Made by a program: the position numbers and the translations under genes. Source: Microbacterium sp. LWH7-1.2 (GTDB taxonomy: Bacteria; Actinomycetota; Actinomycetes; Actinomycetales; Microbacteriaceae). From it: 64,000 nucleotides of DNA. The notes under the pieces were generated by a model. It saw nothing but the letters and a program-made list of their open reading frames with translations. It was not told where the DNA came from and ran no database searches. The stretch spans positions 124,001 to 188,000 of the forward strand of contig NZ_CP151637.1 in NCBI RefSeq assembly GCF_038397755.1, given 5' to 3'. This document shows, piece after piece, positions 4,496-47,875 of this stretch (the stretch's first letter is position 1; every line of letters begins with the position of its first letter).

Positions 4496-7121
4496 GCGGC
4501 GCCGTCGCGCGGCGCAGCCGCGCCCACCCGGCCGCAGCACCGGCGCCGGCGCTGAGATAGAGCCGGTAGGCGATCACGCCGACGACGAACGACAGCAGCG
4601 TGCCGAGCCACGGTGCGCTCTCTTCGAACGGCGGATACACCTGCCAGTGCGTGAGGTAGACGAACAGGGATGCGCCGGCCACCGTCACCACGAGGGGCAC
4701 CGCGATGCGGGGGAGCGGGATGGCCCTGATCCATACCAGGGCGAGGATCCCTTCTGCCACGATCGCCTCGCGCCACGGATCGCCGAAGAATCCGAAGGTC
4801 GCCGCGACCGTGACCGCGGACACGAGGATCCGACGGGCGGTCGTGTCCGCGCGCGCCACGAGCCACCCGAGAGCGACGAGCCACAACACGACAGGGGCGG
4901 AGTACCGCTCCACGTACTCGGCGGTGGGCCCGGCGATCGCGAAGCGGGCAGCGAGCGCGACCGCGAGCGTCACCAGAGCGAACCCGAACGGCGCCCGGCG
5001 CTCGAGCCGTTCGACGCGGCGCACGGCGAAGAGCGCCGCCGCGCCCGCGAACGACCAGAGCATCGCCTCGAGGAACCAGAACTGCCACTGCTCGTTCCAC
5101 CGACCGTCGCTGGGGACGAAGTTGTTCACGAGCGCGACGGTCGTCGGCGAGTACTGGCCCGTGACGAGCGCCACCGCGCCGATCCACAGCACCGCCGGCA
5201 CCGCGAGCTGGGCGGCGCTGCGCCCGAGGCGACGCAGGCGCGCGGTGCCCGCAACGGGCGCCAGCTGGAATCTCGCGAGGTTGTAGCCGGCGACGGCGAG
5301 GAGGAGGTGCGCACCGCCCTTCAGGGCAAGGAGATCGGCGTGGGTCGCGACGATGAGGAAGATCGCCACCGCCCGCAGCACGACCGGCGTCTCGAGGCGC
5401 GTCCACGAGAGCCGGCGACGACTGGTCCCCGTGACCGATGCCGCCGCAGCACCTGCTGGCGCGGCATCCGGTTCCGCGTTCACGACCGACGGCTGCGGGG
5501 GCGAAGCGGATTCGGCGAGCTCGCGCGGAGTGCGCGTCGGCCAGTCCCGGGGGAGCGTGCCGACCATCTCCTCGAGTCGCAGGGACACCTCGACGTAACT
5601 CAGGGAATCGCCGCCGAGCCCCGCGAACGTGTCGTCGATGCCCGCGTCGGGCTCACCGAGAAGCATCGCGTACAGGTCGCGCACGGTCTCTGCCGTGACG
5701 GCGGCCGGAGCCGTCGGTCGTGGGGCAGCCGTGCTGTGGTCGTGGGCGGCAGCGAAGCGCACCAGCGCGGCATAGTCGCGCTTGCCGCTGGAGGTCCGCG
5801 GGAACTCGGACACCGCGTACGCGCCGATCACCCGTGCCGGCACGCCTGTGAGGGCCGCGGCGCGCTCGCGCGCACGGGCGGCCGCGCGCTCGGAGGTCGC
5901 GAACAGCAGCAGCCGCTCGTCGGCGCTCGCCGCGCGCACCTCGATCCCCTCCTCGGCGAGGAGGTTCTCGACGCGATCGAGGTCGAGGCGCAGGCCGAAC
6001 ACCTTCACGAAGCGGTTCATGCGGCCGACGATCTCGTACAGCCCATCGGTGCGCAGCCGCGCGACGTCGCCGGTGCGCAGCTCGGTCACGGTGCGCCCCA
6101 GGGCGAAGTCCTCGGGTCCGTGCGCGTACCCCATCATGACGTTCGGGCCCTCGTACACGAGCTCGCCGGACTCGGCGCCGTCGACGGTGTCGATGCGGAA
6201 GGCGCCGCCGGGGATGGGACGTCCGATGGCGCCGGCGTGCGTCAGCGCCAGGTCGGGCGGGAGGTATGCCATGCGCGCCGTGGCCTCGGTCTGCCCGTAC
6301 ATCACGAAGAGCTCGAAGCCGCGCTCCCGCCCGAGGTGCGCGAACCGTCGCACGGCGTCGGGGGTCATCCGGCCGCCCGCCTGCGTGAGGTAGCGCAGCG
6401 ACGGCAGGTCGGCACCGTCGAAGCCCCTCGCCTCCAGCAGCTCGAACGTGTACGGGACGCCGGCGAACGAAGTGACGGCGTGGGCGCGGGCCCGCGTCCA
6501 GAACTCCTCGTCGGCGACGGAGCGCTCGGTGAGCAGCAGGCTCGCCCCGGTCAGCAGGTGGCTGTTGATCACCGACAGTCCGTAGCAGTACTGCGGCGGC
6601 AGTGTGGTCGCGGCTCGATCGCTCGGCGTCAGCCGGAGGTACTCGGCGATCGCCGCCGCGTTGCTGCGGACGTTCTCGACCGACAGACGCACGAGCTTCG
6701 GCGAGCCGGTGGAGCCCGATGTGCTCGAGAGGACGGCGAGGTCGGGGTGGAACTCGTGCCGGCTCCCGGGGCGGCGCTCGTCCAGCGTCCAGCCCGAGGG
6801 CCCGCCGTGCGCGACGACGTCCGGATCGAATCGTGCGATCAGCGACGTGCGGTGGGCGCGTGAGGCGTCGTCCTCTTCGCCCGACACGAGGAGCACCGGG
6901 TGCCCGCCCTCGAGGGCTGCCAGGTAGGTGACGATCGGCTCGACGGTGTTGCCGGCCGCGACCATCACCAGCCGGCGGACGGCGCCGAGCTCGTCGCGGC
7001 GTCGTGTCACCCGCTCGGCAAGTTCCGCGTAGTCGATCCGCGTGCCGTCGGCGATCAGCGCCGCGTGGTCGGGGTCCCCTCCGAGGAGGGAGAGGCCGAG
7101 GGCGGGCGCAGTGGCGGTCAT
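4470..7121 (-). CDS. Adenylation / carrier / membrane acyltransferase fusion protein
   Basis: An 883-residue three-part protein. Residues 20-450 are an AMP-forming adenylation domain: phosphate-binding loop SSTSGSTGSPK (132-142), aromatic motif YGQTEAT near 275-281, RTGDVARL near 349-356, and terminal SSGKRDY with catalytic Lys447. Residues 480-540 form a carrier domain with GGDSLSYVE, where Ser506 is the expected phosphopantetheine site. Residues 570-880 have about ten membrane helices of the acyltransferase-3 family, with VATHADL supplying the usual histidine (His594). This order suggests activation of a carboxylic acid, loading on the built-in carrier, and transfer to an acceptor at the membrane. 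The ATG at 7121 has an upstream iron box. The substrate is not known; a siderophore or cell-surface modification linked to iron is an inference. Confidence 0.82.
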   Translation of the reverse strand: MTATAPALGLSLLGGDPDHAALIADGTRIDYAELAERVTRRRDELGAVRRLVMVAAGNTVEPIVTYLAALEGGHPVLLVSGEEDDASRAHRTSLIARFDPDVVAHGGPSGWTLDERRPGSRHEFHPDLAVLSSTSGSTGSPKLVRLSVENVRSNAAAIAEYLRLTPSDRAATTLPPQYCYGLSVINSHLLTGASLLLTERSVADEEFWTRARAHAVTSFAGVPYTFELLEARGFDGADLPSLRYLTQAGGRMTPDAVRRFAHLGRERGFELFVMYGQTEATARMAYLPPDLALTHAGAIGRPIPGGAFRIDTVDGAESGELVYEGPNVMMGYAHGPEDFALGRTVTELRTGDVARLRTDGLYEIVGRMNRFVKVFGLRLDLDRVENLLAEEGIEVRAASADERLLLFATSERAAARARERAAALTGVPARVIGAYAVSEFPRTSSGKRDYAALVRFAAAHDHSTAAPRPTAPAAVTAETVRDLYAMLLGEPDAGIDDTFAGLGGDSLSYVEVSLRLEEMVGTLPRDWPTRTPRELAESASPPQPSVVNAEPDAAPAGAAAASVTGTSRRRLSWTRLETPVVLRAVAIFLIVATHADLLALKGGAHLLLAVAGYNLARFQLAPVAGTARLRRLGRSAAQLAVPAVLWIGAVALVTGQYSPTTVALVNNFVPSDGRWNEQWQFWFLEAMLWSFAGAAALFAVRRVERLERRAPFGFALVTLAVALAARFAIAGPTAEYVERYSAPVVLWLVALGWLVARADTTARRILVSAVTVAATFGFFGDPWREAIVAEGILALVWIRAIPLPRIAVPLVVTVAGASLFVYLTHWQVYPPFEESAPWLGTLLSFVVGVIAYRLYLSAGAGAAAGWARLRRATAPLSLRLRRA

Positions 7122-44787: not shown

Positions 44788-45390
44788 ATGATGCGATTCG
44801 AGCACCTCGGGGCACAGCCCCGGATCCACCCCGACGCGGTCGTGGCGGCGACGGCGGTGATCAGCGGCGACGTCGAGATCGGCGCGGACTGCCAAGTCCT
44901 GCACGGCGCCGTGATCACCGCCGAGGGCGGCGCCATCACCCTCGGGGCGAACGTGATCGTCATGGAGAACGCGCTCATCCGCGCCACCGCGACGAACCCC
45001 GTGCACATCGCCGACCACGTGCTCGTCGGGCCGATGGCGAGCGTCTCGGGCGCGGTGATCGAGGAGGAGGTGTTCCTCGCCACCGGCACACGCGTCTTCA
45101 ACGGCGCGCGCATCGGCGCGCGCAGCGAGGTGCGCATCAACGCGGTCGTGCACCTGCGCACGACGCTCCCCGCCGAGTCCACCGTGCCCATCGGCTGGGT
45201 CGCGGTGGGTGATCCGGTGCAGATCCTCCCGCCTGACCGCCACGAGGAGATCTGGGCCGCGCAGCGCGAACTCGACTTCCCGGGTTACGTGTTCGGCCTC
45301 GACCGGGAGACGCCCGACCTCATGGTGCAGCTCACCGAACGGTACGGCCGCAGCCTTGCGCGGCACGCCGGTGACCGTCCGCTGGGCTGA
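44788..45390 (+). CDS. Left-handed beta-helix protein (gamma-carbonic-anhydrase-like)
   Basis: 200 residues starting ATG 44788 after GAGGAGGC. The middle has hexapeptide repeats (VVAATAVISGDVEIGADCQV and ARIGARSEVRINAVV). The family resembles gamma-carbonic anhydrase/PaaY proteins, but the expected three zinc histidines are not clearly all present (HGAVI and HIADHV are candidates), so transferase-like or non-catalytic roles are possible. Confidence 0.8.
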   Translation: MMRFEHLGAQPRIHPDAVVAATAVISGDVEIGADCQVLHGAVITAEGGAITLGANVIVMENALIRATATNPVHIADHVLVGPMASVSGAVIEEEVFLATGTRVFNGARIGARSEVRINAVVHLRTTLPAESTVPIGWVAVGDPVQILPPDRHEEIWAAQRELDFPGYVFGLDRETPDLMVQLTERYGRSLARHAGDRPLG

Positions 45391-45441: not shown

Positions 45442-47139
45442 ATGGGCCGTCTGGGGACCCGTTCGAGACTCGACCAGGCCGTGGGTGCCTTCTCGAGCAA
45501 TTGGCGCAACGCCAATCTGCGGCGCGCCCAGCTGAGCTTCCTCGGTGCGTGGACGGCGGAATGGGCGTTCACGGTCGCCCTCGGCATCGTGGCGTACCAC
45601 GACGGCGGGGCGCTCGCCCTGGGGCTGGTCGGTCTGCTGCGGATGCTGCCGTCCGCGGTCCTCGCGCCGGTGCTGTCGCCGTTCGCCGACCGGGGCCGCC
45701 GCGAGCGCGTGCTCGTGGTGGTGTCGCTGCTGAGGGGCGTGGCGACCGCCCTCGCCGCCGTGGTCGTGGCTGTCTCGGGTCCGATCGCCGTGATCTACGC
45801 CCTCGCGGTGCTGTCCACGATCGCCGCGACACTGTTCCGCCCGGCGCACTCCGCGCTGCTGCCCACGCTGTGCCGTACCGGGCATGAACTGGCGAGCGCG
45901 AACGTCGTGCGCGGGCTGCTCGATTCGGTCGCGACGCTCGTGGGTCCGCTCCTGGCGGCCATCGTCCTCGCGTTCGCCGACGTGTCGGTCGTGTTCGCGG
46001 TGGCCGCGGCCGCCTCGCTCTGGGCGGCGCTGCTGCTGTTCCGCGTGCGCTACCACGCGCCGCCGCGGCCGCCGGCACCGCGCCCGGACCTCCTGAAGGA
46101 GGCGGCCGAAGGGCTGCGCGCCGTCGGTCGCAGCCGGGATCTGCAGCTCATCCTCGGGCTGGCGGCTGCCCAGTCGCTCACGCGCGGTGCGCTGACGGTC
46201 TTCTCGGTCGTCGTCGCGATCGAGCTGCTGCACACGGGGGAATCCGGCGCCGGCGTGCTGATGGCCGCCGTGGGCGTGGGGGCGGTCGTCGGTTCGCTGG
46301 CCGCCTCCCTGCTGGTGGGCACCGGGCGCCTGGGCGCGTGGTTCGGGGTCGGCGTCGGTCTGTGGGGTCTGCCCATCGCCCTCGTCGGCTTCTTCCCGCA
46401 GCAGGCGGCCGCCCTCTTCCTGCTCTCCTTCGTCGGCGTCGGCAACGCACTGATCGATCTCGCCGGATTCACCCTGATCGGACGACTCGCCCCCGACGCG
46501 GTGATGGCCCGCGGGTTCGGGGTGCTGGAGAGCCTGGTCGCGGTCTCCATCGGCATCGGCTCCATCCTGGCGTCGGGGGTCATCGCGTGGGTCGGCGTCG
46601 AGCGTGCGCTGATCGTGATCGGCCTGGTGTGTCCTGTGCTGGCGCTGGCGTCGTGGTGGCGGCTGCGACGCCTGGACCGATCGGTCGACGCGCTCGACGT
46701 CGAGGTGTCCCTCTTGCAGCAGGTGCCGATGTTCCAGCCGCTGCCGCTGCCCTCGATCGAGCAGCTCGCCCGGGGGCTCGAGCCGGTGGAAGTGGCGGCG
46801 GGGGCACCCGTCTTCACCCAGGGCGACGTGGGCGATCGCTACTACGTGATCGAGAGCGGCACGGCAGACGTCATCGGAGACGGCAGGGTCGTCGCGACCC
46901 TCGGCGAGGGGGAGGGGTTCGGCGAGATCGCTTTGCTGCGCAGGACGCGCCGAACCGCGACCGTGTCGGCACATACCGCTCTCCGCCTCAAAGCGCTCGC
47001 ATCCGAGAGATTCACGGCGGTCGTGCTCGGCTACGCGCCCAGCGCGCAGGCGGCCGCGACGAGCGTCGATCAGCGGCTCGACCGGTTCGCGCCGGATGAG
47101 CCGCTGGGCGACTCCCGCCGTCGTGAGGAGGGCGGATGA
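45442..47139 (+). CDS. MFS transporter fused to C-terminal cyclic-nucleotide-binding domain
   Basis: 565 residues. TAGAGT six bases before ATG 45442 indicates a leaderless mRNA. Residues 20-410 are a 12-helix major facilitator (ADRGRRERVLVVVSLLRGVA is the A-loop motif). Residues about 430-550 are a cNMP-binding domain: VFTQGDVGDRYYVIESGTAD and FGEIALLRRTRRTATV, which keeps the Glu and Arg that contact the nucleotide in CAP-like proteins. Ligand binding might gate transport. It lies 20 bp before a cyclase-like gene. The fusion is uncommon; domain assignment is confident, the role is inference. Confidence 0.85.
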   Translation: MGRLGTRSRLDQAVGAFSSNWRNANLRRAQLSFLGAWTAEWAFTVALGIVAYHDGGALALGLVGLLRMLPSAVLAPVLSPFADRGRRERVLVVVSLLRGVATALAAVVVAVSGPIAVIYALAVLSTIAATLFRPAHSALLPTLCRTGHELASANVVRGLLDSVATLVGPLLAAIVLAFADVSVVFAVAAAASLWAALLLFRVRYHAPPRPPAPRPDLLKEAAEGLRAVGRSRDLQLILGLAAAQSLTRGALTVFSVVVAIELLHTGESGAGVLMAAVGVGAVVGSLAASLLVGTGRLGAWFGVGVGLWGLPIALVGFFPQQAAALFLLSFVGVGNALIDLAGFTLIGRLAPDAVMARGFGVLESLVAVSIGIGSILASGVIAWVGVERALIVIGLVCPVLALASWWRLRRLDRSVDALDVEVSLLQQVPMFQPLPLPSIEQLARGLEPVEVAAGAPVFTQGDVGDRYYVIESGTADVIGDGRVVATLGEGEGFGEIALLRRTRRTATVSAHTALRLKALASERFTAVVLGYAPSAQAAATSVDQRLDRFAPDEPLGDSRRREEGG

Positions 47140-47167
47140 CCCGGACCGATCGAGGGGGATGTGCGGC

Positions 47168-47875
47168 ATGACGACATCGAGAACGGCCCTGCTGATCGCC
47201 GACATCGGCGGCTACACCGAGTACATGGGATCGCACCGCCTGACGCTCGCACACGCCGAGGTGAACACCGCCAGGATGCTCGAGAGCATCGTGCACGCCG
47301 CCCGCGGCTTCGACCTCGTCGAGATCGAGGGCGATGGCGCCTTCCTCTCACGCAGGACGGGGTCACGCGATCCCGACACGACGCTGGCCGACATCCTGCA
47401 GGTCGCCGTCGCGATGCACCGCGCGTTCCATCTCGAGCGCGAGTACATCGTCCAGAACCTCTGCCCGTGCGGAGGATGCCGCCAGGCCCGCGACCTGAAG
47501 CTGAAGTTCGTGGCGCACGTGGGCGATGTCGCGACGCAGAGCATCAGCGGCAGATCCAAGCTCGTGGGGATCGACGTGATCCTGGTGCACCGGCTGCTCA
47601 AGAACTCCGTCGAGGTCCCCGAGTACGTCCTGCTCACCGAGGACCTGTACCGGCCCGACACGCCGTCCCTTCCCGACACCGTCGGCGAGATCACCCCGGA
47701 CCTCGAGGGGATCGGCAGCGTCCGGGCGTACTTCGTCGACGTGGCCGACCTCGACCGCGTCGGTATCGAGGCGCCCAAGCCCTCTCTGCGCACCCGCCTC
47801 GGGAGCACGTTCTCGGCGGTCGGCCGGGGGCTGCCGTACATGGTCGGCGTGAAGAAGCCTCGCCGCGCCCGGTAG
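47168..47875 (+). CDS. DUF2652 protein resembling class III nucleotide cyclases
   Basis: 235 residues from ATG 47168. ALLIADIGGYTEYM (Asp12) and VEIEGDGAFL (Asp56) sit at the spacing of the two metal-binding aspartates of class III cyclases. A later segment LKFVAHVGDVATQSI and GIDVILVHRLLKN resembles the cyclase GDAVNLAARL region with its conserved arginine. A CPCGGC cysteine cluster (about residues 101-106) is inserted between them. The neighbouring cNMP-binding transporter supports a nucleotide-signalling role, though activity is unproven and the transition-state asparagine is not evident. Confidence 0.75.
   Translation: MTTSRTALLIADIGGYTEYMGSHRLTLAHAEVNTARMLESIVHAARGFDLVEIEGDGAFLSRRTGSRDPDTTLADILQVAVAMHRAFHLEREYIVQNLCPCGGCRQARDLKLKFVAHVGDVATQSISGRSKLVGIDVILVHRLLKNSVEVPEYVLLTEDLYRPDTPSLPDTVGEITPDLEGIGSVRAYFVDVADLDRVGIEAPKPSLRTRLGSTFSAVGRGLPYMVGVKKPRRAR

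Follow-up and report, generated by a model that had tools for sequence, protein, structure and literature searches.

A DUF2652 cyclase-like gene paired with a major facilitator transporter bearing a cyclic nucleotide-binding tail in actinobacteria

Cyclases paired with an effector that carries a cyclic nucleotide-binding (CNB) domain are a known kind of bacterial system; what is new in the locus described here is a transporter as the effector. The locus lies in a 64,000-nucleotide stretch of the Microbacterium sp. LWH7-1.2 genome (the window) and consists of a gene for a major facilitator superfamily (MFS) transporter with a C-terminal CNB domain (MFS-CNB), followed by a gene for a protein of the DUF2652 family. 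The best-matching proteins with a named source are also from Microbacterium. These genes are a real, conserved two-gene module, and the most likely reading of their sequences is that the DUF2652 protein is a cyclase that probably gates the adjacent transporter, the mechanism proposed earlier in a sequence-only reading of the window.

DUF2652 proteins were predicted to be class III cyclases by Ramakrishnan et al. (2016; PMC4886424), whose study covers 53 proteins, reports the fold, the two metal-binding Asp residues, Lys-Glu and Glu-Lys pairs, and a missing Asn, and lists in Table 2 the CNB-domain neighbours Rv2564 and Rv2565 of Rv2561 in M. tuberculosis strains. Nowhere in its main text are MFS, Microbacterium, or zinc mentioned, and its Table 2 contains no partner of the MFS type or with a PIG-L deacetylase domain. 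Among the matches listed in the open-licence literature, no report pairs a cyclase with MFS-CNB or with a PIG-L protein carrying a CNB domain (PIG-L-CNB). The earlier statement that no example was known must be qualified, since the cyclase prediction and CNB neighbours had been published. In Pycsar (PycC with PycTM or PycTIR; PMC11224242), a cyclase is likewise paired with a CNB receptor protein, but the product is a pyrimidine nucleotide and the receptors are pore-forming or TIR proteins, not transporters. The activity of a clade D PycC requires a zinc site formed by three Cys and one His (PMC11224242); this site (C221, C223, C260, and H263) lies ~160 residues after the metal-binding Asp, whereas the Cys residues of DUF2652 lie ~87 after it. 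The sperm Na+/H+ exchanger SLC9C1 is, like MFS-CNB, a secondary transporter with a C-terminal CNB domain, and cyclic nucleotides shift its voltage of activation; it is an animal exchanger with a voltage-sensing domain and not an MFS protein (PMC10620091). The CNB-gated channels SthK, HCN, and MloK1 are membrane proteins with a C-terminal CNB domain that the tail matches by sequence and fold, but they are channels, whereas the protein here is an MFS carrier. The mycobacterial proteins Rv3728 and Rv3239c, MFS transporters like the one in the window, have a CNB domain and a fused patatin-like domain. They are given only as MFS pumps in PMC6300501.

Genomic linkage of the two genes

A sample of 299 genomes from the family of the window (by inference Microbacteriaceae), one draw serving both searches, was searched for DUF2652 and for MFS-CNB orthologues (E up to 1e-100). 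Each was found in six genomes, and these were the same six, spread over 3 of 85 genera, with the two genes adjacent in all of them. For a broader view, the best 80 of the 218 stretches confirmed in a contig scan for DUF2652 were taken as a set of loci (loci and genomes are labelled L and G below), and MFS-CNB genes were called with a hidden Markov model on stop-to-stop frames in the flanking sequence fetched (up to 5 kb). MFS-CNB was encoded near DUF2652 in 62 of the 80 loci. Four arrangements were seen: with both genes on one strand, MFS-CNB lay upstream in 44 loci and downstream in 9; with the genes on opposite strands, it lay upstream in 6 and downstream in 3. A valid gap figure was obtained for 40 of the 44 upstream same-strand loci (L028, L029, L044, and L086 were left out because the match start was not at base 5001), and the intergenic gap was -4 to 92 bases in 38 of these, the outliers being L022 (192 bases, broken frame) and L060 (1354 bases, with a PIG-L-CNB gene in between). 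Some CNB gene was present in at least 66 of the 80 loci, a lower bound because the CNB protein of L090 did not pass the filter. As PF00027 matches number 0-4 per genome in 12 genomes of the window's and the neighbouring family, a CNB gene would be expected by chance in a 10.7 kb stretch at about 1 locus in 100; this is a rough figure, and genomes of other families may contain more. No point was found in favour of the two genes being chance neighbours, and this possibility is refuted by the identical six genomes together with the 62 of 80 loci in four arrangements.

The MFS-CNB partners linked to DUF2652 are not one lineage. At least four changes between the linked and the unlinked state were counted on a 74-row tree (built by a quick method and with some long branches), and the partners in three Geodermatophilaceae loci (L072, L073, and L081) have 40% identity to the window MFS-CNB, whereas the unlinked proteins of L113 and L114 are closer (56 and 53%). 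When 12 MFS-CNB stretches, several of them short, were fetched from genomes without DUF2652, two contained an MFS-CNB (31-32% identity) beside a PF00211 cyclase, suggesting that a cyclase beside MFS-CNB may be a recurring pattern in which DUF2652 is one of the cyclases. The two are a response-regulator cyclase (L121:3-4555) and a cyclase-AAA-TPR protein (L122:2482-8208), each adjoining a distant MFS-CNB.

The two-gene pair behaves as a cassette. In G148, a genome of the same genus, the order mfd, hexapeptide gene, ppc, and nhaA is intact and the pair is absent, the hexapeptide and ppc matches lying 103 bases apart (the names mfd, ppc, and nhaA come from our inspection of the translated sequences and not from a family search). 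Of five genomes of the genus that lack the pair, this is the only one with a clean empty site. Among the other four, two carry additional DNA (1.6 to 1.8 kb) separating the hexapeptide gene from ppc, a third lacks ppc within the 14 kb fetched, and the fourth lacks a hexapeptide match. In different Microbacterium, the pair lies 3' of the hexapeptide gene in L014 and 5' of it in L017 and L018, and the hexapeptide gene, considered as part of the unit under a bicarbonate-sensing idea, was dropped because the pair occurs on both sides of it. A phage origin was likewise rejected, as phage records gave no match; plasmid records gave two matches with 32% identity over 60%.

Features of the two proteins

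The model fold and residue conservation were computed in this work, as were linkage and cassette behaviour. The DUF2652 protein scores above the Pfam gathering score of its family (PF10851; 119.9 versus 22.1 bits, E 7.5e-35) and has the cyclase homology domain fold of class III nucleotidyl cyclases. Conservation was read from a 127-row alignment in which the protein of the window appears twice (as win and L107) and one row, the L086 fragment, does not reach the cysteine cluster. Both metal-binding Asp residues are kept at cyclase spacing, Asp12 and Asp56 lying 44 residues apart (~44 in class III cyclases), and the cluster C99-x-C101-xx-C104 is invariant in 126 of the 127 rows; on both points the sequence-only reading was right. 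The transition-state Arg is present as Arg142, and Asp56, Arg142, and Lys145 are identical in every one of the 126 covering rows. Canonical class III base-specifying pairs are Lys-Asp for ATP and Glu-Cys for GTP. Neither occurs here, where the pair is Glu52-Lys131, and the charge pairing is reciprocal across the alignment, with Lys, Arg, or Asn at 131 where residue 52 is Glu and Glu at 131 where it is Lys. The register at residue 131 is based on an ungapped run to Gly134 and on PMC4886424. The protein has no match to the class III cyclase family PF00211 (E up to 1), a PDB sequence search with it alone gave no match, and a PDB search with the DUF2652 profile gave six rows up to E 10, headed by a DNA glycosylase (E 0.44) and ending with the cyclase 3mr7 (E 1.4). 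Very divergent DUF2652 relatives in L137 (G488:C50), L167, and L168 (G516 and G508) retain CxCxxC and the 52/131 charge pairing.

An AlphaFold2 model of the whole MFS-CNB protein (predicted local distance difference test score 88.8, predicted template modelling score 0.83) has a helical MFS body and a beta-rich CNB domain, with helix 405-426 heading from the body towards the tail. Foldseek matched the body to VMAT, VAChT, and SotB and the tail to HCN channel CNB domains (3u11, root-mean-square deviation 2.1 over 130 columns). The transporter missed the cut-off of TIGR00900, an H+ antiporter subfamily of the MFS (134.8 versus 319.6 bits). Its tail combines a PF00027 domain match with the Glu and Arg of the phosphate-binding cassette, which reads FGEIALLRRTRRTATV; these residues, Glu495 and Arg504, had been recognized as kept in the sequence-only reading and are unchanged in 35 MFS-CNB rows (window included; identity down to 31%). 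Among the 62 DUF2652-linked MFS-CNB frames, FGE is found with R-T-A in 59 and with R-S-A in one, and the motif was not found in the other two (L022 and L070). Since the cassette Glu and Arg are the signature of 3',5'-cyclic mononucleotide binding in CNB domains, cyclic dinucleotides are unlikely ligands of the tail.

The tail also matches PADLOC PycTIR, two Pycsar effector models, and, via its CNB part, one PycC model. Together with the shared two-gene logic of a cyclase and a CNB membrane protein, and with the patchy presence in 6 of 299 genomes, this would fit a Pycsar-type anti-phage system in which MFS-CNB is a membrane-disrupting effector. We regard such a system as very improbable here: MFS-CNB is a complete MFS transporter, the copy in the window has housekeeping genes on both sides (gene names our own), phage records gave no match, and the DUF2652 protein, which would take the place of PycC, has no PADLOC family match at E up to 1, on which ground Pycsar membership was rejected.

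Proposed signalling and its alternatives

In the preferred reading, the DUF2652 protein would act as a class III cyclase homodimer, using its two metal-binding Asp residues to make a 3',5'-cyclic purine nucleotide. The Glu-Lys pair would favour GTP, and cyclic GMP (cGMP) is a serious, if tentative, candidate for the messenger. This product would bind the CNB tail, helix 405-426 would relay the signal between the membrane part and the CNB domain, and transport, probably export, would be switched on or off. The invariant cysteine cluster would probably bind a metal or sense redox state and thereby set cyclase activity. If this is correct, a bacterial secondary transporter is gated by a cyclic nucleotide from its own dedicated cyclase, DUF2652, a sparsely documented cyclase family, gains a concrete target, and the pair is a relative of cyclase-effector gene pairs that need not serve defence. 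It would also be a clean case of cyclic mononucleotide signalling, possibly by cGMP, in genomes where the searches revealed no further cyclase, and since the pair is kept together in many actinobacteria, a transporter with a private messenger would be directly testable.

Four of the pair-carrying family genomes (G259, G322, G373, and G420) have no match to PF00211, PF01295, or PF01928, the three Pfam families searched (classes II, V, and VI were not searched), and in G373 MFS-CNB is the only PF00027 match. The best indirect evidence that the DUF2652 protein is active is the retention of an intact CNB cassette in genomes where it is the sole cyclase-fold candidate found. The other two, the window genome (G000) and G469, also carry a PF00211 protein, and G000 has one CYTH match (PF01928). 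The one PF00211 protein of the window genome has RQ in place of GD at the second metal-binding Asp, and its homologue in G469 has, in addition, Glu in place of the first Asp. Pseudo-cyclases thus seem to occur here, and the DUF2652 protein could itself be catalytically silent, a cyclase-fold protein that binds nucleotide or metal and, making no messenger, controls the transporter by direct contact, as its Ile in place of the transition-state Asn might suggest. We consider this unlikely given the invariance of Asp56, Arg142, and Lys145, the cassette Glu and Arg retained by the transporter, and the four genomes with a CNB protein and no other cyclase found. Alternatively, the tail might read cyclic AMP (cAMP) from elsewhere, with DUF2652 linked otherwise, for example because it senses the same stress in a nucleotide-dependent way. 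The PF00211 and CYTH matches of G000 and G469 point in this direction, as does MFS-CNB without a DUF2652 match in G008, G084, and G119, but the other four pair genomes lack matches to all three families and the two PF00211 proteins lack one or both metal-binding Asp residues, making this source of the messenger distinctly unlikely.

The degenerate cyclase of the window genome (L124:6133-10102; C1 ~2206132-2210101), which has HAMP and weak Cache matches and has lost the second metal-binding Asp, adjoins an MscS-type channel with a CNB domain, and related degenerate cyclases occur in G148, G168, and G469, each with a CNB match ~1.1 kb off. The remaining CNB proteins that were scanned, from G000, G259, and G322, proved to be pyridine nucleotide-disulphide oxidoreductases, together with, in G000, the MscS-type channel beside the PF00211 protein. 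Such oxidoreductase fusions in pair-carrying genomes are encoded at L125:6359-8356, L189:812-2437, and L191:743-2515.

Two sets of results weigh against gating of the transporter by a DUF2652 cyclase. The first concerns separation of the genes. MFS-CNB was missing from 18 of the 80 loci, of which L049 and L069 are cut by contig ends and L050, L057, L068, and L069 have PIG-L-CNB; the other 13, several of them on short contigs, come from Thermoleophilia or Solirubrobacterales, Rokubacteria, Myxococcota, and one Mycobacterium. In the phylum to which a myxococcal locus belongs, 57 of 193 genomes have DUF2652. No MFS-CNB was found in any of 15 myxococcal stretches, 12 taken from these 57 genomes with more flank (3.5 to 11 kb) and three named; in the myxococcal L090, another CNB protein lies ~3.4 kb from DUF2652. 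No MFS-CNB was found in the mycobacterial L089 or in L126 and L127. In a class sample of 197 genomes, DUF2652 occurred in six, including four cases of the Lys-Glu type from a single genus, and the two of these four that were fetched with 18-19 kb showed no MFS-CNB. G008, G084, and G119 (98, 91, and 82% complete) have an MFS-CNB homologue (54-60% identity) and no DUF2652 match, and a five-sequence cyclase profile found no cyclase beside these MFS-CNB genes (the G119 contig is only 3.3 kb). Taken together, the separation in myxococcal, mycobacterial, and Lys-Glu loci and the MFS-CNB genes without DUF2652 make the pairing a property of the Glu-Lys actinobacterial clade. The frequent separation named beforehand as a counterargument is found outside this clade; in the family sample the same six genomes carry both genes.

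The second set concerns the proteins. Ile138 stands in place of the transition-state Asn, which may mean slow or unusual catalysis; the Glu-Lys pair differs from the known guanylyl pair Glu-Cys; and the profile link between DUF2652 and class III cyclases is moderate (hhalign E 1.7e-4, probability 49.7), with a gap next to residue 131 in that alignment. As to cGMP, a Thr follows the cassette Arg in 59 of the 60 motifs identified in the 62 linked MFS-CNBs, but it does not discriminate cAMP from cGMP and, not being diagnostic, was left out as evidence. For the self-contained system of a cyclase and gated export that was first proposed, the genomic context gives good support (adjacency in 6 of 299 genomes, four arrangements, an empty site, and DUF2652 as the only candidate cyclase among three Pfam families in some genomes) and the replaced Asn speaks against; activity, ligand, and transport direction are predictions. 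The transition-state Asn is not universal, Rv1900c having His, as cited in PMC4886424.

PIG-L-CNB, a PIG-L deacetylase domain followed by a CNB domain, is encoded in 18 of the 80 DUF2652 loci, 14 of which also have MFS-CNB. Examples, with ~90 more residues after the CNB domain, lie at L040:5718-6938, L060:3751-4923, L071:5718-6899, and L078:3715-5025. Five such proteins were compared with NCBIfam, and the best family was BshB2 in four and MshB in one, followed by Mca and BshB1, all below cut-off; MshB was also the nearest solved structure for the one protein searched. A literature search for PIG-L with CNB gave no report. In several families the PIG-L-CNB enzyme, a neighbour of the cyclase gene, would be a second target of the same messenger. 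Its relatives are mycothiol and bacillithiol deacetylases, and in an extended and, as a whole, speculative and unlikely scenario, DUF2652 would be a metal- or redox-sensing guanylyl cyclase with CxCxxC as its sensor, its private cGMP would open the MFS exporter and activate PIG-L-CNB where present, thiol conjugates would thereby be cleared in actinobacteria, and the Glu-Lys/Lys-Glu swap would switch the messenger from cGMP to cAMP.

Layout of the locus

Coordinates of the pair and its functional residues in the window
Feature	Position	Strand	Evidence
MFS transporter with C-terminal CNB domain, 565 amino acids (MFS-CNB)	45442..47139	+	Pfam MFS_1 E 1.3e-24, cNMP_binding E 9.4e-15; helical MFS body residues ~9-410
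cNMP_binding domain, residues 449-528	46786..47025	+	Pfam E 9.4e-15; solved-chain matches including PKG, PKA, HCN, SthK
Phosphate-binding cassette, residues 493-508, including Glu495 and Arg504	46918..46965	+	both invariant, 35 aligned rows
Ribosome-binding-like gaggggga 5' of DUF2652 start	47152..47159	+	sequence reading
DUF2652 class III cyclase-like protein, 235 amino acids	47168..47875	+	DUF2652 (PF10851) match
Asp12 codon, first metal-binding Asp	47201..47203	+	D in 125/127 rows, 2 gaps
Glu52 codon, position of base-specifying Lys in adenylyl cyclases	47321..47323	+	E 82, K 44, gap 1 (127 rows)
Asp56 codon, second metal-binding Asp	47333..47335	+	D in 126/127 rows, 1 gap
CxCxxC cluster, residues 99-104	47462..47479	+	126/127 rows, 1 gap
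Lys131 codon, base-specifying Asp/Cys position	47558..47560	+	K/R/N where residue 52 is E; E where 52 is K
Ile138-Arg142: Ile in place of transition-state Asn, Arg kept	47579..47593	+	138: I 125, V 1, gap 1; R142: 126, gap 1 (127 rows)

The DUF2652 gene starts 28 bases 3' of the transporter stop. The ATG at 47168, preceded by gaggggga, is the best start; the closest relatives align from the same point (235 amino acids, 91% of the longer query); an alternative in-frame ATG at 47096 lies within the transporter gene. On the 5' side the pair is flanked by mfd, a methyltransferase gene, and the hexapeptide gene, and on the 3' side by ppc on the opposite strand. The hexapeptide gene, which is gamma carbonic anhydrase-like, adjoins the pair at 44788-45390 and is also found beside it in L014, L017, and L018.
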